This document shows, piece after piece, positions 439 through 22,096 of a stretch of DNA of 43,417 nt. Within the stretch, counting starts at the first letter, position 1; each line of letters starts with the position of its first letter. The position numbers and the translations under genes were made by a program. The notes under the pieces are model-generated. The model did no database searches. It was given only the letters and a program-made list of their open reading frames with translations, and was not told the DNA's origin. Origin of the DNA: Victivallales bacterium (lineage in GTDB: Bacteria; Verrucomicrobiota; Lentisphaeria; Oligosphaerales; Oligosphaeraceae); the NCBI GenBank assembly GCA_017535315.1, contig JAFXUD010000030.1, forward strand, positions 78,307-121,723, read 5' to 3'.

Positions 439-1680
439 TCAGGTTCCCTTGTCTATCATCTCCTTTTTCCTGCGGAATGTGGGGATATCGACATTGACAC
501 CGTTCCACATATTCTCTGGATCGCCTGCAAAAATCCCGACATCGTTTTCAACAAACGCGAATGTCAGCTGACCATTATCCTGCTTGCTGCCCTTACGCCC
601 TCCCTTGCGTGACTTGACAACGGGGTATTGGGGGACAGGCGCAACAGGAACTGCGGGATCATCAGGATAAGTCTCCTCTTCATCTTCTGGTTCTTCAAGC
701 TCAGCCTCCTCGCCGCTTTGCTGTATCGTATGAAGCAGCAGAGTCATGGAAAAATATGAAGGAATGGCCTCATCCATACAAGCAGCTACTTCCATATTGG
801 CATCAGGAAAGATATTGGAAACCGTGTTCAGCACATATTCCATCTCCTCTTCACGGCAGTTCGCGTTGACACGCAAAAGCGCAATACCCCTGTCAATCAC
901 GGTATGCGACTGCAATTCCTTGTATATCGGATCCTGCTGAATTCGATCGGCTATCTCGGATATCTTATCCGATGTCTCGCAGGCACATTGTATGAAATGG
1001 CAACGCGGGTTGCCATCTACGCTTGCCAGACTCGCCAATATTCCAGGCGTGACATTGAAAAGGTTCTTGCAGGAAAAAGGTGTTGCAATCCCTGTTGCCG
1101 CCATGGCCAAGTAGGCAGAGGCATTGCTGAAGGCGTCTGCTGCCGTATTCTGCTGATAATGAGCCAGCAGCTTTTCATTGGGGATGACCACCAACGCCTG
1201 GCAGTGCACATCCATCTGCGAGAGAAGCTGCTGAGCCGCCGCTTTCCGCTCCGCACTTTCAAAGGAAAAAGGCATCACCGCCAGCAGGACAGCGGAAACA
1301 CCCATATCATCAGCCAGACTGAGTATCTCCTCAACAGCGGCACCAGTCCCGCCACCTAATGCCGCCACGACAATGAGAAGCCTGCGGTTTTCCAGGTGCT
1401 TGGATATTTCACTGCTTGCATCCCTCAGAACGAGGACAGCCTGCTCGCTATCGGCGGAAGTGCCGTTGCCATTGACAGCCTCCTCCCCCAAAAGCAGGGA
1501 ATTGATATCATTTTTTTTAAGGTTTTGTATCTCCGCCGCATCAGTATCGATGCCAAGCAAATCTATTTCCGCATATTGTTTCAGGTATGGGAGCGAAGCA
1601 AGCACATCACATCCAGTATGTCCAAGTCCCAAAATCAGGCAGGGGGCCGTCGCCTTGTTTTTGCTTTGTCTGCTATCCAT
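439..1680 (-). CDS. ftsZ: Highly divergent FtsZ-like tubulin homologue
   Basis: 413 residues, beginning 12 bp after ftsA, with a purine-rich GGGGGAG ribosome site. Canonical FtsZ polymerises with GTP into the division ring. What is retained: a tubulin-like fold pattern with the IDTDA segment (residues 44-48), PFSFE (137-141), IPNEKLL (166-172), an acidic/proline linker (about 323-360) and a C-terminal VDIPTFRRKK peptide (397-406) like the FtsA-binding tail of FtsZ. What is altered: the first glycine box is LGLGHTGCDVL (17-27) instead of GVGGGGxN; the tubulin signature is GGGTGAA (110-116) instead of GGGTGTG; the T7 synergy loop is NVTPGIL (209-215) where FtsZ has NxDFADV, so both catalytic aspartates are gone. 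The fold call is firm; GTP hydrolysis is doubtful. Pairing with FtsA argues for a division role. Confidence 0.82.
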   Translation of the reverse strand: MDSRQSKNKATAPCLILGLGHTGCDVLASLPYLKQYAEIDLLGIDTDAAEIQNLKKNDINSLLLGEEAVNGNGTSADSEQAVLVLRDASSEISKHLENRRLLIVVAALGGGTGAAVEEILSLADDMGVSAVLLAVMPFSFESAERKAAAQQLLSQMDVHCQALVVIPNEKLLAHYQQNTAADAFSNASAYLAMAATGIATPFSCKNLFNVTPGILASLASVDGNPRCHFIQCACETSDKISEIADRIQQDPIYKELQSHTVIDRGIALLRVNANCREEEMEYVLNTVSNIFPDANMEVAACMDEAIPSYFSMTLLLHTIQQSGEEAELEEPEDEEETYPDDPAVPVAPVPQYPVVKSRKGGRKGSKQDNGQLTFAFVENDVGIFAGDPENMWNGVNVDIPTFRRKKEMIDKGT

Positions 1681-1692
1681 AATTCTCTCCCC

Positions 1693-3018
1693 CTACCAGT
1701 TGACAAGCGCGTGCATAATATCTGCCAGGAACTGACGTGGTGTCTTCTTACGATTCTCCTCATTGGCGCTTGCCTCGCGTATCTGGTAATCGTAAACAGA
1801 CATTTTGAGAAGTCCATAGGGGACGATATCCCGCGCGTCATTGTAGATGAACTTCCTGTCATTGCATTTTGGAGTCTCTGCGACGCGTACTTTCCTCCCA
1901 AAGATTTGCTCCGCCGTCTCGCATATCCCTGGAATCAACGCACCACCGCCCGACAGAATCACACCTCCTCCCAAATGGTGCCAGGAATCATTCTTCATCA
2001 ATTGCTCCTTCACCATGGAAAGTATTTCATGCACCCGAAGATACGCGACACGTTCAATACTGGAGACAGGAACCGTGCGTTGACGCTGCATCCCACGCGA
2101 ATCGCTGGACCAGCGATTCTCCACGGTCGCCTTGCGCTTGCGACCATCATTCTTGTTCACAATGTTGGCGTTCAGCTCACTTCCCATCTTGCGCATGATA
2201 TTCCTTGCCGTGTTCCATTCGATGTCAAACGCCTGCATTAAATCATTCTCAATATGATTGCAGCCGACTGGAATGTGACCAGCATGGACAAAGCACACCC
2301 CACGTGACACCACGAACGATGTCACCCCAGCGCCTATATCAATCAGCAGCACCCCATTGGCAAGGTCCTCTTCCAGATCAAGAGCATAGCCTATTGCCAT
2401 CGGCAAATAAAGCGTAATCGGTGTCACGCCAACAACCTCCTTGACCATCCCCTCCAATGTAGCCAACATGGTGCAGGAGCATAACGCCCCCTGCACATTT
2501 GCAGTGATTTCATGGGACGCCATATTGACGACATCATAGACCTCCCGCTTGTCATCAAGCTGGAAAAAACGCGTATAAGTCTGAAGCGTCCTGTTCTCAG
2601 ATGTGGCCAGAAAATCATAGTGCTCACGGACCTTTCTTGTCAGGACGGTCATGTCATCCTGTGTGATAAGGCTCTTTGAATGGACTGTTTTCAGGGTCAT
2701 GGAGGCGTTCTGAGACTGTACACCAGCGGTGATACCCAAATAGACGTTCCCGCCGCTGGTCATCGTTCCTGCCTTCAGCATGGCCTCGCCAAGAGCCTGA
2801 TGAAGCAGCTTGGTCACATCCTGAACGTTGCAGACAATGCCTTTTCGAATGTTCCCCGCAAGCTGCGCAGAATTGCCGCTGCGGTTGGAAAGCGTGTCGG
2901 AGCAACCCAATATCTTGAGGTTACCATCATTTTCCAGACGGGCAATTATCACGCGTATTGCCTCTGTCCCAAGGTCAATGATGGTAAATTGTTTATTTGT
3001 CGCAATATCTTCTGTCAT
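1693..3018 (-). CDS. ftsA: Cell division protein FtsA
   Basis: 441 residues, an actin-family ATPase that tethers FtsZ to the membrane and recruits the divisome. The actin-fold motifs are present: phosphate-1 IDLGTEAIRVIIA (residues 14-26), phosphate-2 LLIDIGAGVTSFVV (224-237) and the adenosine motif GGGVILSGGGALIPGI (350-365). Residues about 90-175 fit the FtsA-specific 1C subdomain. The C-terminus, RQFLADIMHALVNW (428-441), reads as an amphipathic helix and would serve as the membrane-targeting sequence. The start has GGAGGG about ten bases upstream. It is followed after 12 bp by the divergent ftsZ, so the two are surely co-transcribed. Unlike its partner, this protein keeps its nucleotide motifs, although a basic/serine-rich insertion (about 290-315) is longer than usual. 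Confidence 0.93.
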   Translation of the reverse strand: MTEDIATNKQFTIIDLGTEAIRVIIARLENDGNLKILGCSDTLSNRSGNSAQLAGNIRKGIVCNVQDVTKLLHQALGEAMLKAGTMTSGGNVYLGITAGVQSQNASMTLKTVHSKSLITQDDMTVLTRKVREHYDFLATSENRTLQTYTRFFQLDDKREVYDVVNMASHEITANVQGALCSCTMLATLEGMVKEVVGVTPITLYLPMAIGYALDLEEDLANGVLLIDIGAGVTSFVVSRGVCFVHAGHIPVGCNHIENDLMQAFDIEWNTARNIMRKMGSELNANIVNKNDGRKRKATVENRWSSDSRGMQRQRTVPVSSIERVAYLRVHEILSMVKEQLMKNDSWHHLGGGVILSGGGALIPGICETAEQIFGRKVRVAETPKCNDRKFIYNDARDIVPYGLLKMSVYDYQIREASANEENRKKTPRQFLADIMHALVNW

Positions 3019-3151
3019 CTTGTGTTCCCTCCGTCAACAATGGTTCCCTCTTCCATTGATATTTTCAAACTGAAATTACCTCTGAATATGCATCCTATAA
3101 CAATGTAACCTAAAACCTGACTCTCGCAAGGTGAAACCTACGATTTTTATG

Positions 3152-3177
3152 GAAATTCGAGGTGAACCTCGAATTTC
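3152..3177 (-). terminator. Perfect 11-bp hairpin at the end of the APH-like gene
   Basis: GAAATTCGAGG (3152-3162) and CCTCGAATTTC (3167-3177) are perfect inverted repeats around a 4-base loop. The hairpin begins inside the TGA stop of the gene at 3176. On the transcribed strand it is followed by CATAAAAATC rather than a U-run, so it is not a classical intrinsic terminator. It may still end or stabilise the long upstream transcript before ftsA. Confidence 0.4.
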
Positions 3178-4111
3178 AATTCCATTTTTCCCGCAGCAGC
3201 TCTGCATTGTCTAGAAGCAGCCAGATGAAATCCAGTTCCTGTACCATCATTTCACGGTCATTAGCAAAGCACCACTCCCTCATCCAGGCAAATCGCTGTG
3301 CCGCGATGGTTTCTGGAAGCCACTGCCAAGAATCCTTCGACAGAAAATCTTTTCCACGAAGGGTACGTACCAACTCCATTGCCATTCCATTCGTCAGATA
3401 TTCTGGTGCATCCATCCCAATGCATCCCAGCAAATTGGCTAGGTCGTACGCCTCTATCTTGAAACCGCAGAACTCCCAGTCTATTAGCGCATTGATCTGC
3501 TGGTTGCCCCAGATGATGTTCAACGGATGAAAATCTCCGTGGCAGAAATGGACAGGAAGGCTTGCCTCAACATTGAAAAACGGTCCCAATGCCTCCAAAA
3601 TCGGCTGCAAATCGCTGAATAAAGCAGGATTATGAGATCTGATATGTCGCATGAGATGACTGATGTAATGCCCCAATTCAAAATGCTCGATCGCAGGAAT
3701 GCCTGATGATTTTTCCTTAAGTTCCAAAAGTAGAGCAGCACAGGCCTTGCCACGCCAATCGTCATTGGCGTAGGTTTCGCGGGGCAAAGGCACCCCTGGA
3801 ATCCATTTGCGAAGTTGCCAGAAGGCATTTGCATACTGAAAACCCAAGTTGCCATCCAAAGTTGGCAACCATGCTGGAACTTCCTTGAAATGATGCACTT
3901 GAAGCATTAGAAGCATCTGTGCCTGTTTCAGGCGCGACGTGAGTTTTTCAGGGAGAAGACACTCCAGGATATAGCTTTCACCATTGGAGGCACGCAATGC
4001 CTGCCGAAAGGTCACGCGAGCAGGACTGCCTTCGTTCACAGGTACTTCCAACAGTTCAGCATCTTCTAAGCCCCATTGGCGAAGCACATTTTCGGGAATC
4101 TCTCTTTTCAT
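3176..4111 (-). CDS. APH/choline-kinase-like phosphotransferase family protein
   Basis: 311 residues. The Brenner motif HGDFHPLN (191-198) supplies the catalytic aspartate and the metal-binding asparagine, followed by IDWE (210-213) with the metal-binding aspartate and YDLANLL (222-228). This is the aminoglycoside phosphotransferase/choline kinase/homoserine kinase fold. The N-terminal lobe has no obvious glycine-rich loop but does carry a plausible strand ESYILECL near residue 45. The ATG overlaps the uvrA stop (ATGA, 4108-4111), so it is translationally coupled to uvrA. Members phosphorylate small hydroxyl compounds; the substrate here is not readable, and antibiotic resistance is not implied. 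It is the last gene of the long operon starting at 21866. Confidence 0.85.
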
Positions 4112-12724: not shown

Positions 12725-15700
12725 CTAGTTTTTAAGAAGCCTGATAAGCTCTTCTTTTGTGATTTGGTTGAAGACATCCGTGCCATCCAGCAGGTCTTCA
12801 GCCAGTTTTCGCTTGCTTTTATGTAGTTCAATGATCTTATCTTCAATGGTGTTCTTGGCTATCAACCGATAGATGGTGACGGGCTTGTCCTGTCCGATTC
12901 GGTAAACCCTGTCAGACGCTTGGTCCTCGACGGCTGGATTCCACCAGGGGTCCAGATGGATGACATAGTCGGCTGCCGTCAAGTTGATGCCCATGCCACC
13001 CGCCCTCAGGCTGATAAGAAAGACATCCCCTTCCCCGTTTTGAAAGGCTTCAACGGCAGCGGTACGCTCTTTGGCGGACATGTCGCCGTCCAGATATTGA
13101 TAGGAAATGCCACGTTTTTGTATCTCCTTCTCTATCAAGGCAAGATGCTTGACAAATTGACTGAAGACAAGTATCTTGTGATGTGATTGCAGCAGTTCAC
13201 TCAACAGTTCGAAGAACGCTTCCATCTTGGAACTGGCAATGCTCGAATCAGGCGCAACCAGCTTGGGATTACAAACCGCCAGACGCAGTTTGGTGATGGC
13301 GGTGATGACGCGCATCGGCAGACGTCCATTCTCTGCGTCAATCCGATGAATCTCCTCCAGCAACTCAAGTCTCAATGCCTCATAGAAATGGCTTTCCTCA
13401 GGAGAAAGAGAGATGAGCATCGGTATCTCTGTCTTTGATGGTAGCTCATTCAACACATCCTTTTTCAGACGTCGAAGAACAAATGGCTTGACGATGTTTG
13501 AAAGCCGTTCCAGCGCCTCTTTGTCTTTGTCATTCTCAATCGGCATCGCAAAACGCGCCTGAAATCTTGCATGGGTATCCAGAAGGCCTGGATTGATGAA
13601 ATTGAACAGCGACCACAATTCATTCAGATTGTTCTCCAAAGGAGTACCTGTGGTCGCCATACGAAACTTCGCCTTCAAGTCGATGACCGCCTGTGCCCGC
13701 TTTGTGTTGTGGTTCTTGATGGCCTGCGCTTCATCAAGGACGACAACGCGCCATTTCACGGAGCGAAACGCCTTGTCCTCGCTTTGCAACAGCCCATAGC
13801 TGCATATCATAACCGTATTCGCTCCAAGCTCCTTGAAAAGCTCTTCACGGTGAAGCCCACCAAAGACAATTACAGACAAAGAGGGTGCAAAACGCTGAAG
13901 CTCCGACACCCAGTTGTTACAGACAGAAGTAGGGGCGACAACCAGCGCAGGCCCCTCGGACGCGTAACGCAACATGAAGGCTATCACCTGAACTGTCTTG
14001 CCCAGCCCCATGTCATCCGCCAGACAAGCCCCCACACCCCAGGCGTCAAGACGACATAGCCATTCAAACCCCTCTTTCTGATAGGGACGAAGGACTGCCT
14101 TGAGTTTCTTCGGCACCTCTGGCTTCAGCTTCATGGCCTCCTCTATCTCGTCCACTTTGGCATCAAGGACGGAAAGCTCCTTTCCTGAAATGCTGTCTGC
14201 AAGGAGAGAACGCATGAAAGGGGTCATTACCTTGCTGAAATGAACTCCATCATCGGCAATGGAGACAGAGGCGGCAATATCCTCCAACTGCTTGCGGAAG
14301 GATTCCGCAAGCGCAAGCACCTGCCCGTTATCCAGCAGGATGTAGTTGCCACGGCGTTGCTTCATGGCCTTCAGCATCTCCTTCATGGCAATCACCTGGC
14401 CATCGTCCAACGTCACGCTGCCTTCCAAAGAAAAAAGCCAGTCGCCTTCTGGATGGCAATGGAGTGCAAAGTCATTCTTGGTCAGGCGGCGCGATGTCTT
14501 GAATCGCTTGTTGTCAGGCCAGTGGACACGGACCTTGTCAACCATCTCCTGCAAGGAAATGGAAAAATCATAGCAGCTTTCCATGCTTTGAAGCTCCCAG
14601 GAATAGTCTCCCAATGGGGCGGCATCGCCCAACGGCATGCAATGGGCAATAAACTCCTCCACTACCTGGTGTTCCTGCGCAAAGTCACGCACAATCCTCA
14701 CAGGGTTGCCTTCCTCACAGACTATGCTCTCCAATGGACCTTGACCAGGCACGAGCAGCTCTTTGCTATTGGGAAAGGGCATCAGGAACAGCTCCACTTT
14801 CATGCGCGTGTCCATTGGTTCAAGCCGAACATGCAACTCCGTTGATGCATTCCTGCTACGTATGCCCGTGAACAGTAATGGCATTTCCGAAAAGACATTC
14901 ACTTCTAACGCCATTGCCCGTAGAAAATGGGTCATGCTGTTCAAATACTTTTCTGGTACGCGCAATCCATCGCCTATCTCAGCAGCCATCAGCGCCTGCT
15001 GTTCTCCAAAGGAATAAAGCAGAACGTCGGCCTGTGCGCTCCGCTTTGCCACAATGCCGCTCGGCTTGATTGCTGGCAAAAAAGAAACACAGGCATTTTC
15101 CCCATCCATTTGAAGAAAAAGAGCTGGTTTTTCCCGAAAACATTCAAAGTGCTGTGCGCCATTCTCCCAGAAAAGAAGCGGATGGCCTACCGCCGTCTCA
15201 AAGGCGTGCCGAGAAACGAAGCTAGTTTCTTTTCCAACTCCCTGTGCAAGTTTCAGCTCATCGACGATGATATTGCAGATGAGTTGGTCTTGAAGCGTGA
15301 AGAAGGAGGGCCACTGACGGGTCTGGGCATTCCCTCGAAGATTGAATTGCCTGCCTTTGCTCCATTCTCCATGCTTGCCCATCTTCTGCTCCACTGGGCG
15401 CATGGCGATCGGAAAATCCTCGGTGTTGGGATTGTAAGTGCAAAACCAGCAAAGGCGTCGATAAGAGTTCTCAGCATTCTGCCCTGTCATGATTTTCAAA
15501 ATGTTCTCCATGGCACGCTCCCAGACAGGACGCACATGGCAGCAATGCACAATCCCTTCAACGGGTGCATGATGAAGCGGAGTGCGATTCTCATAATAGC
15601 TCTCGATGAAACTGCACTCCTTAAACAGGACAGGATATTCTCCCTGGCATTTCTTTAGCAGGACGGCAAGCGTCTCCTTGTGCTCCCCCTCTGTCCAGAA

Positions 15701-16786
15701 GGAGGCCACGACACTCAAATACTGCCCGAAATCACAGATCTCATCCTGATATATCTCCTCTTCCGCCGTTTCCCTGGATTCCATGATGTCCGCAGGGAAA
15801 ATCCGTCTCAGGCTATATTTTACATCCTTGAAGGCATCACCCAGCAGATTGAGGCGTGTCACTTTTTTCAAAAACTGGAAAACTTTCAAACGATGCTCTA
15901 CCTTTCCCGTGGACAGCAAGGCGAAAACAGCATAAACGCCAGGAAAGGAATTCAGTAGAGCCGTGGCCTTCTCCCACTTTAAACCATCCAACAGGGAAAG
16001 ATATGTTTTTGCAGATTCCTCGTAGTTGCCAATTTGGTACTGGCACCATGCTTCCCTGGGAACCCGAAGCTCATCCTGTAGCCCCTTTATTAATTCTTCA
16101 GCACGTTCCCGCTCCCCATTCAGCAGAAAATAATCCGCCAATGCAGCCATTGAATTGGGAGAAAGCTCCTCGACCCTCCGCATGATTCGCTCAACCCCCC
16201 CTCTGATGGGTGAAAGATTCAACATGGCGTATGGGATAAAATTACTGCACAGGACATTGAGAATACGACTGTCCATTTGCTCAAGCCAAGGAGTATCCAA
16301 ATGGTAGAACATGAAGTCGAAAATCTGCCCCGGATTGGTGAAAGCCTTCTTTTCTGCATAAATGACGTTGGCTTCGCCAAAACAAGGAACAAGCGCATCC
16401 CAATTGTCCGCGTAGATGAAATTGCGTATATCCCGTTTCAATCCAATCGGCTCTGGCATCGACATACGGTTGATTTCTCTTGCAATGGCCTTCGCAAGCC
16501 TTGGCTCTTTCTGAATAGCCTCAAATGCGAGGCGTTCGCACTCCCCTGGGTCTTTAAGGCAAAAGGTTTTATCGGAAACGGAATAGTCAATCGAACTTCC
16601 CATCAAATGCAATAGACGGGCTGGCATGAGAAAATCAGGATATTGTGACTTGTGCAACTTCCCAAAAGCCTTCGCCATGACAGGATTCTTCATCAGATTC
16701 AAAACGGCGTTCCGTTCAATCGGATACCTGTTCAGCGATAGCAAAACCAGTGTTTCCTGCTGTATTTCTTCACTCAAAGTTGGCAT
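12725..16786 (-). CDS. SNF2/RapA-type DEAD-box helicase-like ATPase with a large N-terminal extension
   Basis: 1353 residues. The C-terminal 470 residues are a complete SNF2 motor: motif I LADDMGLGKT (922-931, K930), motif II DEAQ (1018-1021), TGTPLENNLNELWSLFNF for motif III and the SNF2 linker, then SLRAGGMGINLTAADYVIHL and VYRIGQ (1294-1299) for motifs V and VI. Such bacterial proteins remodel nucleic acid-protein complexes, such as RNA polymerase, using ATP. The first 880 residues are mostly helical by composition, with scattered cysteines (CHV, CWFC near residue 450), and I recognise no named domain; bacterial SNF2 proteins often carry a SWIM zinc finger there, but no clear one is seen. 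It sits 24 bp after miaB and 21 bp before the GH2 gene. Confidence 0.93.
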   Translation of the reverse strand: MPTLSEEIQQETLVLLSLNRYPIERNAVLNLMKNPVMAKAFGKLHKSQYPDFLMPARLLHLMGSSIDYSVSDKTFCLKDPGECERLAFEAIQKEPRLAKAIAREINRMSMPEPIGLKRDIRNFIYADNWDALVPCFGEANVIYAEKKAFTNPGQIFDFMFYHLDTPWLEQMDSRILNVLCSNFIPYAMLNLSPIRGGVERIMRRVEELSPNSMAALADYFLLNGERERAEELIKGLQDELRVPREAWCQYQIGNYEESAKTYLSLLDGLKWEKATALLNSFPGVYAVFALLSTGKVEHRLKVFQFLKKVTRLNLLGDAFKDVKYSLRRIFPADIMESRETAEEEIYQDEICDFGQYLSVVASFWTEGEHKETLAVLLKKCQGEYPVLFKECSFIESYYENRTPLHHAPVEGIVHCCHVRPVWERAMENILKIMTGQNAENSYRRLCWFCTYNPNTEDFPIAMRPVEQKMGKHGEWSKGRQFNLRGNAQTRQWPSFFTLQDQLICNIIVDELKLAQGVGKETSFVSRHAFETAVGHPLLFWENGAQHFECFREKPALFLQMDGENACVSFLPAIKPSGIVAKRSAQADVLLYSFGEQQALMAAEIGDGLRVPEKYLNSMTHFLRAMALEVNVFSEMPLLFTGIRSRNASTELHVRLEPMDTRMKVELFLMPFPNSKELLVPGQGPLESIVCEEGNPVRIVRDFAQEHQVVEEFIAHCMPLGDAAPLGDYSWELQSMESCYDFSISLQEMVDKVRVHWPDNKRFKTSRRLTKNDFALHCHPEGDWLFSLEGSVTLDDGQVIAMKEMLKAMKQRRGNYILLDNGQVLALAESFRKQLEDIAASVSIADDGVHFSKVMTPFMRSLLADSISGKELSVLDAKVDEIEEAMKLKPEVPKKLKAVLRPYQKEGFEWLCRLDAWGVGACLADDMGLGKTVQVIAFMLRYASEGPALVVAPTSVCNNWVSELQRFAPSLSVIVFGGLHREELFKELGANTVMICSYGLLQSEDKAFRSVKWRVVVLDEAQAIKNHNTKRAQAVIDLKAKFRMATTGTPLENNLNELWSLFNFINPGLLDTHARFQARFAMPIENDKDKEALERLSNIVKPFVLRRLKKDVLNELPSKTEIPMLISLSPEESHFYEALRLELLEEIHRIDAENGRLPMRVITAITKLRLAVCNPKLVAPDSSIASSKMEAFFELLSELLQSHHKILVFSQFVKHLALIEKEIQKRGISYQYLDGDMSAKERTAAVEAFQNGEGDVFLISLRAGGMGINLTAADYVIHLDPWWNPAVEDQASDRVYRIGQDKPVTIYRLIAKNTIEDKIIELHKSKRKLAEDLLDGTDVFNQITKEELIRLLKN

Positions 16787-16810: not shown

Positions 16811-18151
16811 TCACATTACAACTTCCCCTGAAAGCGAGTTGGCAGAGCATCTAGTGATCCTCAGATTCACCATATCCCCTTCCTTCAAGCCAGGAACAGG
16901 AGTGAAATTGCAGGTCTTGTTCAGATCGCTACGCCCCGTCCATCTCTCTTTGTTCCGCTTGCTGACACCTTCAACCAACACCTGCAAAACCCTCCCCTTG
17001 AACAGCTGGTTGCGTTTCTCGGCAAACTCCTCCAAATCACCCAGAAGGATCTGGTTGCGCTCGTGCTTGACCTCATCGGGCACATCGTCCGCCATTGTTT
17101 CCGCCGAGCGCGTACCAGCGCGTGGCGAATAGCGGAAAATATAGGCCATGTCAAATCCCACGGTCTTCATCAGCTCGCGTGTCGCATTGAAATCCTCCTG
17201 CGTCTCTCCTGAAAAGCCGACAATAACATCGGTTGAGAAGGCCACTTCAGGCAATCTGGATTTGATGGCATCAATCCGCCTGAGATACTCATCCGCCGTG
17301 TATCCCCTGTGCATCAGCCGAAGCATTCGATCCGAGCCAGATTGAAGCGGAACATGAAACGACTTGCAGACCTTCGGCAACGAACAAATTGCCTCAATAT
17401 ACCGTTCGTTCATAAACCGCACATGAGGGGATGTAAAACGAATGCGCTCTATGCCTGGAATCCCGTTGACCGCCTCTAGAAGCTCCGCAAACGGGCTGAT
17501 TTCTGGAGTGTAGGTGCCTTTTTCACGTGCTTCAACCAGACCGTATGCCGTGATGTTCTGCCCGAGAAGAAGTATCTCCTTCGTTCCCTGTTCGGCCAGC
17601 ATCGTAATTTCATCCACAATGGCGGGGATTTCACGGCTGCGCTCGCGCCCGCGGGTGTATGGCACAATGCAATAGGTGCAGAATTGGTTACATCCACGCA
17701 TGACGGAGGTCATTGCGCAGACTCCACCAGGCTTGTGCCCAGGACACTCGTGGTAAACGGGTTCGCCTTGCCCCAGTTCCGCCAGATGACGTTTTCCGCC
17801 AAGTGCCTTTTCTATCATGTCAGGCACCTGATGCAATTGCTCCGTCCCTGCGACAAAACTGAGATGCGGAATCATCTCAAACAGCGCCTTCCCACGGTTC
17901 TGCGCCATGCAGCCGATTATCCCGATGACCAGATTCGGCTTGTCGTTCATCAACCGCTTGAGCAGCCCCGCCTTTCCAATGGCCTTGCGCTCGGCCTGCT
18001 CACGCACACTGCAGGTATTCAGAATGATGATGTCGGCATCCTCTTCCCGAAAACATTCCATATATCCCAGCGAATCCAGGAGGCAAGCTAAGGCCTCGCT
18101 CTCCCGCTCATTCATCTGGCAGCCGTATGTCTTTATGTAAAAACGTATCAT
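16811..18151 (-). CDS. miaB: tRNA-2-methylthio-N6-dimethylallyladenosine synthase MiaB
   Basis: 446 residues from the ATG at 18151 (MIRFYIKTYGCQMN). A longer TTG start at 18202 would add 17 residues unlike the family. MiaB is a radical SAM methylthiotransferase that converts i6A37 to ms2i6A37 in tRNAs reading UNN codons. The N-terminal UPF0004 domain has C11, C47 and C81 for the auxiliary iron-sulfur cluster. The radical SAM cluster is CNQFCTYC (C154, C158, C161) followed by IVPYTRGRERSR, the MiaB-specific continuation. The C-terminal 65 residues form a TRAM RNA-binding domain. All ligands are intact. It is 54 bp downstream of two U32 genes, some relatives of which also modify RNA. Confidence 0.96.
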   Translation of the reverse strand: MIRFYIKTYGCQMNERESEALACLLDSLGYMECFREEDADIIILNTCSVREQAERKAIGKAGLLKRLMNDKPNLVIGIIGCMAQNRGKALFEMIPHLSFVAGTEQLHQVPDMIEKALGGKRHLAELGQGEPVYHECPGHKPGGVCAMTSVMRGCNQFCTYCIVPYTRGRERSREIPAIVDEITMLAEQGTKEILLLGQNITAYGLVEAREKGTYTPEISPFAELLEAVNGIPGIERIRFTSPHVRFMNERYIEAICSLPKVCKSFHVPLQSGSDRMLRLMHRGYTADEYLRRIDAIKSRLPEVAFSTDVIVGFSGETQEDFNATRELMKTVGFDMAYIFRYSPRAGTRSAETMADDVPDEVKHERNQILLGDLEEFAEKRNQLFKGRVLQVLVEGVSKRNKERWTGRSDLNKTCNFTPVPGLKEGDMVNLRITRCSANSLSGEVVM

Positions 18152-18205
18152 GTATCGACAAAATCCAATGCGTCCACTTCCATGGCTACAAAGGCAGTGC
18201 AAATA

Positions 18206-19207
18206 TTACAACGGAATATAAGGTTCAAAAATGAATCTCTCGTAGGGAATTTTACCCTCGAAATAGGGTTCGCTATACTCCGTATGGAAAATCATCAGCG
18301 CTGGACCACGCTGGATAATGGGAATGTCGCTCGGCGGAATGGAGGGACTGCAGTTGTATTTCTGACAGGGCCTCGGGCAAGGCTCCTCTGTGACCTGATA
18401 GGCACGGTAGGGATTGGTGGTTCCTGATGTTGCACAGTTGCGCCCAGTGGCAATGAATCCCCAGGGATAGTAGTAGCCCAGCGTCATTCCCCATCCGTCC
18501 GCAGGACGCTTGGTACCCTGCGGCACAATGTCCATATCCACATTTTTAACTCCCATGGAATGGAGTTTCTCCACATATTCAGGATTGTTCAGACTGATGT
18601 CCGCGTAGGCATTGACCTGATTCTTCTGAACCTCCTCGAATGGCGTCTGGATATCGGTGTAGAGGGTCGGCATTTCATTCGGGGAATAGACAAAGATGTT
18701 CAAGCGGGTCTGCTTGTTGAGGATTCGCCCCAGCACTGGTTTGAAACCGGGGTAATCCCTGCGCAGGATGCGCAATACACCCCAGTCATTGAAAACCACC
18801 TCAACACCATCTGCCTCCGCACCAATCTCCTTGAGCCTCTCAAGATTCTTCCGTACCTTGTCGATGCCTGCATTGGTCAGGTAGCCGCCCGTGACATAGG
18901 TGTAGTTCCACCCCAACTGCTTGGAGTAAAAATAGGACTGCTCGATCTCATTCGGGCCTGGAATCAGGTTCTGGCAGAACTCCTGCCCGAAATAGAGGCG
19001 GGAAAACTCATGCCCCTCCCTGTAAAGCTTGTCCAGCCAGGTCAAGGCATTGGAATTAGCGACATACTCGGCTAGATTGGGGTTCATCGGAAAAATCACA
19101 GCGGCCAGACCAGACTGGATCTTCTGGATATCCACATAGCGCAGAGATTCCTCCATCTCGTCCAGGCGCTTCATATTCGGGAAATAGACGGCGAGTTCAA
19201 GCTCCAT
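18206..19207 (-). CDS. U32 family protein (second of a pair, UbiV-like)
   Basis: 333 residues. The segment VVFNDWGVLRILRRDYPGF and the following PVLGRILNKQTR match the U32 core seen in UbiV/YhbV (a VxNDxG..L then GRLLN pattern). A C-terminal cysteine set, GRNC followed by CPRPC and NC, matches the four-cysteine iron-sulfur site of UbiU/UbiV. Despite the name peptidase U32, characterised members catalyse or support hydroxylation of ubiquinone precursors or of RNA. The start codon overlaps the stop of the partner gene by one base (TAATG at 19205-19209), so the two are translationally coupled and probably form a heterodimer. Signal or membrane segments are absent. Substrate unknown; proximity to miaB permits a tRNA-modification role but does not show it. 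Confidence 0.8.
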   Translation of the reverse strand: MELELAVYFPNMKRLDEMEESLRYVDIQKIQSGLAAVIFPMNPNLAEYVANSNALTWLDKLYREGHEFSRLYFGQEFCQNLIPGPNEIEQSYFYSKQLGWNYTYVTGGYLTNAGIDKVRKNLERLKEIGAEADGVEVVFNDWGVLRILRRDYPGFKPVLGRILNKQTRLNIFVYSPNEMPTLYTDIQTPFEEVQKNQVNAYADISLNNPEYVEKLHSMGVKNVDMDIVPQGTKRPADGWGMTLGYYYPWGFIATGRNCATSGTTNPYRAYQVTEEPCPRPCQKYNCSPSIPPSDIPIIQRGPALMIFHTEYSEPYFEGKIPYERFIFEPYIPL

Positions 19208-20292
19208 TATTTGTCCTCCTCTGGAATCTCATAGTAGCAGGAAAACTTGGCGTCGCAGAAGGCTTCGCTCCCAATGAGACTGCGACAGAACTCCCTGCTG
19301 GGATTCTCCGCATTCATGACCTGGCTGACAATCTTGACCACATTCAGCTTCGTGTCTTCATCGCCTCGCAGAGGTACCTTCAAGGCCTCCACGCCGATTT
19401 TTCGCAGATACTTGATGGCGCAAAGACCGCATGTCTGGAACATCAGATGCGCTAATTCCCCATCGACACCCTGGCAGCCCGCACATTTGTACTCAAACTT
19501 GGGATATTCTGGCGGCTTGGTCCCCAGCCATTCCTTGCGGAACTTATCGACGGGGCTGCCTTCAAAAAGCGATTCCTTGGGGTGTTCAATCATATATTCC
19601 ACAACATCCTTCCAGTTGGAGGGGAAACGGTTGGCACTCATGAAATGGGAGCTGATGACATCCCCGCAGAGGTTTCTACGTTTGCCGCTGTGGATGGAAT
19701 GACAGTCCTCGTCGTTGAAGTAACAGCGATAACCGATGATCATCACCTCATATTCAAGCTTCAAATCCTTGAGGTCGTCGATGATCGACTTCATCTCGTT
19801 GATGGTCAGCTTCCTTGGGATGACCAGTCGCGTGATGTTGCTGAACTGTTCGCAAAAGAAGCGCACAGCCTCGCTGTTGAAGCAGCCGACACCCGTGCTG
19901 ATATGCAGGTCGCGTTTGATTCCCCATTTCTCCATGCAGTACATGATAGCGGGGTCGGCGACAATGTATCCGTCAGGATTCAGGGTCTCGAAGAGGTCGA
20001 ACATGTCATGGACCATCCCCATGCGGTCTGCGCCGTTGTCATGGGCATTTACGGCCAAATTGACGGTTCCGCCGCAGTCGTGGATTCCCTTGACGATGTC
20101 CCGAAGTTCAGAAACATTTGAGTAGTTGTAGGCGGGTCCCATGGTTCTGCGGTTGGGGCCCACCTCCCAACCGAACTTGTCCAACCAAGCACGCGGGACA
20201 TAGCCCATGAAGAATTCCTTTGCCCCATATTCAACAAACTTGGCAACCGTCGAGGGGGTGTCCGTGCTGCCGAGCCCCAGTGTCATGAACAT
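19207..20292 (-). CDS. U32 family protein (first of a pair, UbiU-like)
   Basis: 361 residues. N-terminal GAKEFFMGYVPRAW, NRRTMGPAYNYSN, VNLAVNAHDNG and PDGYIVADPAIMY follow the U32 barrel, with HISTGVGCFNSEAVRFF and LVIPRKLTINEM after it. Cysteines in the GYRCYFNDEDC and RRNLCGD segments, then KCAGC and CGLC, can ligate one or more iron-sulfur clusters; the CxxC pairs near the C-terminus are more than UbiU needs. Family members act in oxygen-independent hydroxylations or related chemistry, usually with a U32 partner, which follows directly here with a 1-bp overlap. The 74-bp gap before it holds only a small GTAC/GCAC hairpin (20324-20351). No transport signal. The exact reaction is unknown. 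Confidence 0.82.
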   Translation of the reverse strand: MFMTLGLGSTDTPSTVAKFVEYGAKEFFMGYVPRAWLDKFGWEVGPNRRTMGPAYNYSNVSELRDIVKGIHDCGGTVNLAVNAHDNGADRMGMVHDMFDLFETLNPDGYIVADPAIMYCMEKWGIKRDLHISTGVGCFNSEAVRFFCEQFSNITRLVIPRKLTINEMKSIIDDLKDLKLEYEVMIIGYRCYFNDEDCHSIHSGKRRNLCGDVISSHFMSANRFPSNWKDVVEYMIEHPKESLFEGSPVDKFRKEWLGTKPPEYPKFEYKCAGCQGVDGELAHLMFQTCGLCAIKYLRKIGVEALKVPLRGDEDTKLNVVKIVSQVMNAENPSREFCRSLIGSEAFCDAKFSCYYEIPEEDK

Positions 20293-20366: not shown

Positions 20367-21866
20367 TCAGTTACGTGGTTTGCCGTGGCACTCCTTGAAG
20401 GGCTTTCCGCTTCCGCAGAAACAAAGCCCATCCACCATCTTGTGAACCTTTGCTGCACTTCGCGCGGGGCGGTTTGCAGTGTCAGAGGTCTGGCGGTCCC
20501 GCAGGGAAACCACTGGCAATGGCATGTTATCATTCATCACCTGCTTTCGCATGGAGGCAAGCCTGTTCAGCAGCGTCTTAGCAAGCACACGCCGAATCTG
20601 CCGCCAGGGATCGTATTTCTCCGTAAAGTCCATCAAGGAAAAGAATCTGGCAAAGCCGCCCTGCTCCTCGTAGAGCTTTATCAGAGAATCCTCCAGGGAG
20701 AAATAGATTCGCATGTCATGCTTCATTATCGCCATGCGGTTTACTGCTGCATTCATCTTCGTATAGGAGATTTCAGACAGGAACGGATCCGCCACAAACA
20801 ACGTGGCGGGATGCTTCTCCAGCGGTGGGGAGAACATGGTCGAAGTCATCTTTATCTCCAGAACCACATGCTTGCCTGACCCAGAGGCAAGAGCGGTGAC
20901 CATCTCCTCCGTATCTCTCACCAGAACATAGTCCTGCCCGCTCTTCCGCAACTCCTCCATGAGTTTGTTGCAGATTTCGTCATCGTTGCAGAAGACAATG
21001 GCATCGTCAGGCGTCTTCATGATGTCCGACAGCAGGGCCGCGATTCTTTCATCGCTGGTCTTGAAGGCAAATGCACTGTACTTCAACCTGTAGTTCGGCA
21101 CCACTGGCTTGGCTATGAGATAGGGATACTGTTTGTTCAGCTGCTCGGCAGACTGCTTGTTCATATAGCTTGAACTTCCGCCAATCAGGATTTTTCGCTG
21201 ACGAAGTCCCTCTGAAACATCATAAATGCTTCGGTTCCCACGCCACAGCGGAATCAACTTCTCATTTGTATTGTAAATCATGCCAGACGACTGCGGAATG
21301 CCACGGTCATAGAAGATGAGGCGGTTGCTGTAGAGAATCGAGTCGATTTCCAGGAACAGCATAGGCAAACCTTCCTCGAACAGATCTGGGGTCGAGTTCA
21401 TGGCAGTGGCAAACATGTAGTAATCGCAGATGGCCAGTTTGCATTTGCCGATGTCATTGAACTTCAACTGCGAACTGACGCCGCAGAAGCTGCCGACATG
21501 GGTGAGCGGCTCGTCCAGTATCCCCTCAATGCTGCGACCGATGTTACGGACAAGCGCCGCATCGACACGCATCATGTTCATGATCAGGCAACGACCAAAG
21601 GTCAGGACATGGAACAGTGATGCAAGAAAAACACCCTCCACCTGCGGGCCATCACCAAAACAAACAATCTCTCCCGCAATTAGCTGGCGAAGCATCTTCT
21701 TGCGCATCCCCTCGGGCACCTCAAGCCATTTGTCAAAGGCACCAGTGCGCCCTTTCTCTTCAAGCACAAACGTCTCTGTCCAGGCGCAAAAAGGCTCTAT
21801 CTGCGCCTCCTGCGACATAACCATAGAGCGTTGCTTCAGTTCCAACCATTCACTTTTTGCTGTCAT
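20367..21866 (-). CDS. Degenerate SecA-like protein with SEC-C zinc motif, motor motifs lost
   Basis: 499 residues versus about 900 for SecA. Colinear SecA landmarks are recognisable: GDGPQ (71-75) stands where Walker A GEGKT should be; FLEIDSIL (171-178) replaces VDEVDSIL; a short RGIPQSSG end of the strand follows, then ILIGGSSSY (226-234) for LAGMTGTA, KPVVPNYRLKY (253-263) for the VPTNRP-R segment, and FKTSDERIAAL for the YxTxxEK segment. IKMTSTMFS replaces the NMAGRGTDI arginine-finger motif, and IYFSLEDSLIKLY (387-399) equals RFYLSLEDxLMRLF. The end is a SEC-C zinc site with C482, C484, C493 and H494. The preprotein cross-linking domain and most of the helical wing and scaffold are missing. 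ATP binding is therefore unlikely. Role unknown; a SecA or SecB partner, adaptor or chaperone function is conjecture. It is the first gene of the long operon, behind a good promoter. Confidence 0.75.
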   Translation of the reverse strand: MTAKSEWLELKQRSMVMSQEAQIEPFCAWTETFVLEEKGRTGAFDKWLEVPEGMRKKMLRQLIAGEIVCFGDGPQVEGVFLASLFHVLTFGRCLIMNMMRVDAALVRNIGRSIEGILDEPLTHVGSFCGVSSQLKFNDIGKCKLAICDYYMFATAMNSTPDLFEEGLPMLFLEIDSILYSNRLIFYDRGIPQSSGMIYNTNEKLIPLWRGNRSIYDVSEGLRQRKILIGGSSSYMNKQSAEQLNKQYPYLIAKPVVPNYRLKYSAFAFKTSDERIAALLSDIMKTPDDAIVFCNDDEICNKLMEELRKSGQDYVLVRDTEEMVTALASGSGKHVVLEIKMTSTMFSPPLEKHPATLFVADPFLSEISYTKMNAAVNRMAIMKHDMRIYFSLEDSLIKLYEEQGGFARFFSLMDFTEKYDPWRQIRRVLAKTLLNRLASMRKQVMNDNMPLPVVSLRDRQTSDTANRPARSAAKVHKMVDGLCFCGSGKPFKECHGKPRN

Positions 21867-21908: not shown

Positions 21909-21936
21909 AATATATACGACATTGGGCACAGTTCAA
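21909..21936 (-). promoter_or_regulatory. Sigma-70-like promoter for the SecA-like gene operon
   Basis: On the minus strand, TTGAAC (21936-21931), a 16-bp spacer and TATATT (21914-21909) form a good -35/-10 pair. Transcription would begin near 21902, about 36 bp before the ATG at 21866, with AAGG in the leader as ribosome site. It probably serves the ten-gene run down to 3176. Confidence 0.6.
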
Positions 21937-22003: not shown

Positions 22004-22096
22004 ATGACTAATGGGACGGGAGAGACGAGAGAGACGGAACTGAAGTTCTAAAACAATTCACTGTCCCTCCCATCTTTCTCGTCCCCCATTTGTCAT
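22004..22096. repeat. 93-bp imperfect foldback (MITE- or terminator-like)
   Basis: Arms 22004-22040 and 22063-22096 are imperfect inverted repeats, both ending in ATGAC-AATGGG/CCCATT-GTCAT and rich in GAGACGAGA-type purine runs. The 22-base middle also pairs (TGAAGTT with AACAATTCA), so almost the whole 93 bp can fold into one long stem. It sits between the FGGY kinase stop and the promoter at 21936. It may act as a transcription barrier or be a small non-autonomous mobile element; there is no transposase in the window and I saw no second copy. Confidence 0.6.

Follow-up and report, generated by a model that had tools for sequence, protein, structure and literature searches.

To our knowledge, no SecA-derived pseudo-ATPase has been established, and our search of the literature returned no SecA pseudo-ATPase, no connection between SEC-C and U32 proteins, and no named family or model for the protein reported here. 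YecA and YchJ, which carry a SEC-C finger, lack a SecA core and have no link to U32 genes that we know of. The secondary SecA_DEAD proteins of Planctomycetes and Verrucomicrobia are proposed to be working ATPases and are encoded beside type I secretion genes (PMC4452313). Among U32-family proteins, UbiU and UbiV form a heterodimer that carries one 4Fe-4S cluster in each subunit and performs O2-independent hydroxylation, the ligands of the UbiU cluster including C169 and C176 (PMC6747719). Anaerobic ubiquinone synthesis reportedly draws its oxygen from prephenate, other U32 oxidases modify 23S rRNA and tRNA, and the substrates, chemistry and partner proteins of anaerobic U32 hydroxylation are described as open questions of the field (PMC11574389).

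The window, by which we mean the whole stretch of DNA analysed, comprises 43,417 nucleotides of contig JAFXUD010000030.1 of a Victivallales bacterium (GCA_017535315.1). It encodes a SecA-like pseudo-ATPase to which we give the working name SecL (Table 1). The coordinates and the intact 499-residue frame given in a preliminary description of this DNA proved correct, the gene being read on the minus strand from an ATG at 21866 to a stop at 20367, while the plus strand of the same interval is interrupted by stops in the same frame. The promoter attributed to the gene in that description is weak: it consists of one site (21936-21909), and the region holds three such promoter-like sites against 4.7 expected by chance. 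A gap of 297 bp on the upstream side and close spacing of the genes downstream fit the proposal that SecL heads a long operon. An imperfect inverted repeat with 14-nt arms (22024-22083), situated between an FGGY kinase gene and SecL, is possibly the terminator of the gene upstream. No RNA families were found in the region. Elsewhere in the window, a gene for a tubulin/FtsZ-family GTPase adjoins an FtsA/MreB-like gene (439-3018, minus strand).

Table 1. Features of the SecL locus, in window coordinates.
Feature	Position	Strand	Remarks
SNF2-family helicase	12725..16786	minus	adjoins the cassette in several genera only
MiaB, tRNA methylthiotransferase	16811..18202	minus	adjoins the cassette in several genera only
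U32b	18206..19207	minus	333 aa; no Pfam/NCBIfam match
U32a	19207..20292	minus	UbiU-like U32-family protein, 361 aa; PF01136
SecL	20367..21866	minus	SecA-like pseudo-ATPase, 499 aa; opens the conserved cassette of three genes
SEC-C metal finger	20382..20423	minus	residues 482-495, CFCGSGKPFKECHG; best-conserved stretch of the SecL family
SLED segment	20688..20699	minus	residues 390-393; common to SecL and SecA
Walker B-equivalent	21342..21353	minus	residues 172-175, LEID; aspartate lost, E173 nearly invariant, D175 invariant
Walker A-equivalent loop	21642..21656	minus	residues 71-75, GDGPQ; lysine in 0/17 aligned homologues, Q75 invariant
Promoter-like site	21909..21936	minus	TTGAAC-16-TATATT, 5' of the cassette; within chance expectation

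In each of the 15 genomes where the sequence extends far enough, SecL is followed by two U32-family genes in the same order and on the same strand, and this order also holds at a locus (L083) where the SecL homologue is 25% identical. Across 48 genomes of the order, SecL and U32b are both present in 17 and both missing in 29, a joint presence with a Fisher P of 7e-11 (kinship ignored); in the two discordant genomes (G022 and G045) the contig end cuts the neighbour within U32a, and a partial U32a is present. The three-gene cassette, which the preliminary description overlooked, is compact enough for co-expression. One genome (G003) possesses the MiaB-SNF2 pair without the cassette, and in two others (G005 and G015) the cassette lies apart from that pair, which indicates that the cassette is separable as one unit. 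The notion that MiaB and the SNF2 protein are functional partners of the cassette is weakened accordingly, since the pair occurs without the cassette and the cassette without the pair, and MiaB is probably a neighbour and not a partner.

The U32 pair itself occurs in further arrangements. In genome G035 (L081, 5782-9869) U32a and U32b are duplicated in tandem directly behind a single SecL, and genome G029 contains a second U32a-U32b pair (L111, 6830-9102) with no SecL in the 18 kb examined. Distant pairs resembling U32a and U32b are also present in G256 and G338, members of two other families of the phylum, where SecL is lacking as well. SecL is therefore not required by every such pair.

U32a has eight invariant cysteines (190, 197, 209, 288, 291, 336, 346 and 352) and aligns with Escherichia coli UbiU at an hhalign P of 6.5e-18, with C190/C197 placed on C169/C176, so that homology is accompanied by the CX6C cysteine pair of UbiU. 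Its score against the NCBIfam UbiU equivalog, at 61.7 bits, falls far under the cut-off of 440, and U32a is consequently a relative of UbiU and not its orthologue; among NCBIfam models it is nonetheless closer to UbiU (E 6.5e-17) than to TrhP (6.3e-11). U32b possesses four invariant cysteines (78, 258, 277 and 281) in a CXnCX18CX3C arrangement, which resembles the CXnCX12CX3C of UbiV but differs from it in spacing; the same cysteines were recognized by eye in the distant pair of G338. The comparison of U32b with UbiV gave an hhalign P of 0.27, and a fold search of the PDB with a U32b model yielded no match at E<=0.001. Gene position and cysteine pattern are the grounds on which U32b may be termed UbiV-like.

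Since SecL always lies beside two U32 genes, it probably assists an enzyme of O2-free hydroxylation and not protein export. The more specific reading, in which a UbiUV-like O2-independent hydroxylase has SecL as its non-motor subunit for scaffolding or targeting, has in our judgement an even chance of being correct: we infer the complex, from gene linkage, as well as its chemistry and the scaffold role, while the fold, the motif loss, the purifying selection, the invariant linkage, the co-occurrence and the relationship of U32a to UbiU are directly supported. As to the substrate, UbiA-family genes are common, and the window's genome and G008 (a single contig) each yielded only one such protein, which is EboC/SCO3242-like and not MenA/UbiA, on which account a quinone substrate, and hence quinone hydroxylation by the cassette, is unlikely. 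Tentatively, and with distinctly less conviction, one may suppose that an export motor stripped of its ATPase was recruited as the targeting subunit of an O2-independent Fe-S hydroxylase whose substrate is new and not a quinone, and is perhaps located on RNA, ribosomes or nascent protein.

A different use of the same three genes would be an RNA modification route, in which SecL, as a pseudo-helicase, would attach to RNA or the ribosome and bring a base within reach of the U32 proteins for hydroxylation, in analogy to RlhA and TrhP. This explanation accords with the known action of U32 oxidases on 23S rRNA and tRNA (PMC11574389), with the SF2 helicase fold of SecA (DEAD-box proteins being the next-best fold matches to SecL) and with the adjacency of the tRNA-modifying MiaB in several genera. 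We consider it unlikely, however, since U32a is closer to UbiU than to TrhP, the MiaB linkage is lineage-specific, and the distant pairs of G256 and G338 occur amid genes that resemble small-molecule biosynthesis. By eye, the latter (L109, 3486-8067, and L110, 6005-11827) include FAD-dependent oxidoreductase-, radical SAM- and DegT aminotransferase-like genes, neighbours that favour small-molecule chemistry in those two genomes and form another conserved setting of U32 pairs without SecL.

Of the 48 genomes of the order, 18 contain a SecL homologue, and the remaining genomes sampled from the phylum contain none, in a survey of mostly draft assemblies whose search beyond the phylum was shallow. 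The conservation in related genomes on which the preliminary description had staked its case is thereby borne out. When genome contigs were scanned with the single SecL protein, only one near relative emerged, its gene broken across two contigs; among named records the closest comes from a Victivallales bacterium of the goat rumen, and viral contigs contained no homologue. SEC-C matches elsewhere in the class (L060 and L064) were discarded as SecL relatives because they belong to radical SAM proteins that end in a SEC-C tail, and other weak matches outside the order involved SEC-C tails only. These two radical SAM proteins (L060, 313-1584; L064, 343-1611) resemble, by eye, anaerobic sulfatase-maturating enzymes with a C-terminal SEC-C.

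The SEC-C tail of SecL (residues 481-496) matches PF02810 at 22.1 bits, above the cut-off of 20.4, and the finger is intact, in keeping with the full zinc motif noted earlier; SecL thus retains the metal-binding tail of SecA. The form of its finger, CFCGSGKPFKECHG, holds 12 invariant positions and departs from that of the local SecA, where the finger is of the CPCGSGKKYK type (CPCGSGKKYKNCCG). Being both the most conserved part of SecL and unlike the finger of the local SecA, the SEC-C finger suggests a specific contact. The window's genome encodes a third protein with SEC-C, 293 aa long (L145, 1366-2247, minus strand), whose finger is the ordinary CPCGSGKKYKKCCG. Membership of SecL in a defence system was rejected, as the PADLOC model concerned matched the SEC-C tail alone.

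It may also be asked whether SecL acts in the Sec pathway, either on SecA itself, as its regulator, chaperone or partner, or, comparably to YecA, as a ribosome or nascent-chain factor that operates through its SEC-C finger. The SecA fold and the SEC-C finger would suit such a role, an accessory function in the Sec pathway has been suggested for other SEC-C proteins (PMC8076867), and the window's genome does encode one normal full-length SecA, whose separate existence the preliminary description had wished to see verified. This explanation is nevertheless doubtful, and somewhat more so than the RNA route: SecL is always linked to U32 genes and never to recognized sec genes, its invariant finger is not that of the local SecA, and it is missing in 30 of the 48 genomes of the order, while SecA was detected in 15 of the 16 tested. 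The earlier suggestion that SecL regulates or partners SecA is therefore not upheld, the invariant neighbours being two U32-family genes and not Sec genes, and neither is that of a SecB binder, as no SecB was found above the family cut-off in the 48 genomes; SecL may yet bind ribosomes through SEC-C. One further protein with a SecA_DEAD domain was encountered in genome G029 (L037, G029:C213:31510-32580, protein at 913-3450); it has intact GEGKT and GRGTD motifs and, by eye, an N-terminal stretch resembling an ECF sigma factor, and it may be related to the secondary SecA_DEAD proteins of PVC bacteria.

Outside the SEC-C tail, no Pfam or NCBIfam model matches SecL (for Pfam, also at relaxed E-values), no SecA_DEAD match was found in the SecL family, and a single-sequence HMMER search of the PDB recovered essentially the tail alone, leaving the SecA core invisible. 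As only the finger was recognized by these searches, an independent test of the SecA assignment was needed. For this purpose, an alignment of 17 sequences, gathered within the same order, served as the basis of an AlphaFold2 model (pLDDT 83.9, pTM 0.83). A Foldseek search of the PDB with this model placed SecA or SecA2 at ranks 1-26, with E-values down to 1.3e-11, followed by DEAD-box and other helicases; the TM-scores on the query were 0.47-0.59 for SecA/SecA2 compared to 0.22-0.43 for the other helicases listed, and overall sequence identity in the fold matches was approximately 10-14%.

In profile comparisons, the SecL family was aligned with 15 full SecA proteins of related genomes. The whole-profile hhalign run reported the tail alone, and the core was then compared without it. 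Residues ~227-422 of SecL align in register to SecA NBD2 (P=6.5e-4), with MTGT of SecA opposite GGSSS of SecL, KTxxEK opposite KTSDER, and SLED opposite SLED; none of 100 column shuffles (mean 14.6, maximum 25.1) reached the score of 32.5, and neither did an SNF2 helicase control, at 21.9. Against the PDB, the family profile gave weak SecA matches (E 0.04-0.13). The NBD1 profile match (P=0.046) falls short of significance by itself, and the likeness of this domain to that of SecA is a prediction of the model, in which a strand (67-69), a loop (70-74, FGDGP) and a helix (75-90) occupy the place of the P-loop and a strand at 168-172 runs into E173/D175. SecL accordingly displays the two RecA-like domains and scaffold helix of the SecA fold, NBD1 by model.

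These results agree with what the preliminary description had proposed: the order of the SecA core is supported by the model, the fold ranking and the colinear NBD2 match (with NBD1 by model), the retained SLED segment falls on that of SecA NBD2, and the two tests by which it could have failed, a SecA match beyond the SEC-C tail and homologues conserved in related genomes, both turned out in its favour. Most likely, SecL derives from SecA and serves in a different context. The alternative, that a generic SF2-like protein gained a SEC-C tail, could explain the low overall identity and the non-significant NBD1 profile, but is improbable given that the 26 best fold matches are all SecA, that the colinear NBD2 and SLED alignment surpasses every shuffle and the SNF2 control, and that SEC-C sits at the same end as in SecA.

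In contrast to the fold, the catalytic motifs have vanished. Walker A (GEGKT in SecA) reads GDGPQ, Walker B (DEVD) reads LEID, in which the glutamate and the second aspartate are retained and the first aspartate is gone, and GRGTD and RGRxGRQGD (motifs V and VI) are replaced in the family by, for example, RGMPST or KMTSTM. At 499 aa, compared to ~1010 aa for the local SecA, SecL has no room for the preprotein cross-linking domain and the helical wing, and no profile match to either was obtained. With several defining motifs absent, SecL is not a SecA in the functional sense. The claim that the ATPase motifs and the preprotein domain had been lost thus holds, and for Walker A, the Walker B aspartate, GRGTD and the arginine-finger segment the loss is family-wide.

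Selection on the gene is strongly purifying. The Nei-Gojobori dN/dS between SecL and its nearest relative is ~0.08, with synonymous sites near saturation; the tail, separately assembled in that relative, gives 0.05, and three other, closer homologue pairs give 0.10-0.15. SecL evolves faster than the local SecA (dN 0.115 vs 0.031). The family has 27 invariant columns, an intact frame and a similar length across many genomes and several families, and its first residues line up in nearly all members, pointing to the same start. Although every ATPase motif is gone, a decaying SecA paralogue or annotation artefact is scarcely credible in view of the intact frame, similar length and shared start in many genomes of several families, the 27 invariant columns and the dN/dS of ~0.05-0.15. 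Taken together, the dN/dS values and the motif loss identify SecL as a maintained pseudo-ATPase, one in which, reading from the sequence, ATP binding and hydrolysis are predicted to be lost. The preliminary description had thus rightly preferred a conserved, SecA-derived pseudo-ATPase to a decaying gene, and had proposed the dN/dS comparison that bears this out; of its proposals, the Sec and SecB roles are those that find no support.

Returning to the hydroxylase reading, we envisage that a SecA ancestor lost the preprotein domain and helical wing, while its two RecA-like domains, its SEC-C finger and the beginning of its scaffold helix were kept. The resulting protein, devoid of ATP binding and hydrolysis, would serve U32a and U32b as a non-catalytic subunit. 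The latter two would constitute a UbiU/UbiV-like Fe-S pair, probably hydroxylating without O2, and SecL may keep the two joined or bring them to their substrate, one point of contact being the SEC-C finger. If so, the SecA fold would be used outside protein translocation, as a passive scaffold, and the tie to a UbiU/UbiV-like pair would point to an uncharacterized anaerobic hydroxylation system in Victivallales-type bacteria.

Compared with SecA, SecL shares the order and fold of two RecA-like domains, the SLED segment, the start of the scaffold helix and the C-terminal SEC-C finger, but it is half the size, lacks Walker A and B, GRGTD, GRxGRxGD, the preprotein domain and the helical wing, and is linked to U32 genes. 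Like SecA2 and the secondary SecA_DEAD proteins, it is a second SecA-derived protein beside a canonical SecA in PVC bacteria (PMC4452313); unlike the latter, which have a recognizable SecA_DEAD domain, it has no SecA_DEAD match and resides in a different neighbourhood. It resembles YecA and YchJ in being a non-SecA protein that carries a SEC-C metal finger (PMC8076867). The cassette differs from UbiU-UbiV-UbiT of E. coli in that neither of the two hosts examined gave any hint of a quinone prenyltransferase, and resembles it in its adjacent U32 genes, of which the first is UbiU-like, in the conserved cysteines of each, and in a third, accessory gene (PMC6747719), which is SecA-like in the cassette and the SCP2 lipid-binding UbiT in E. 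coli.
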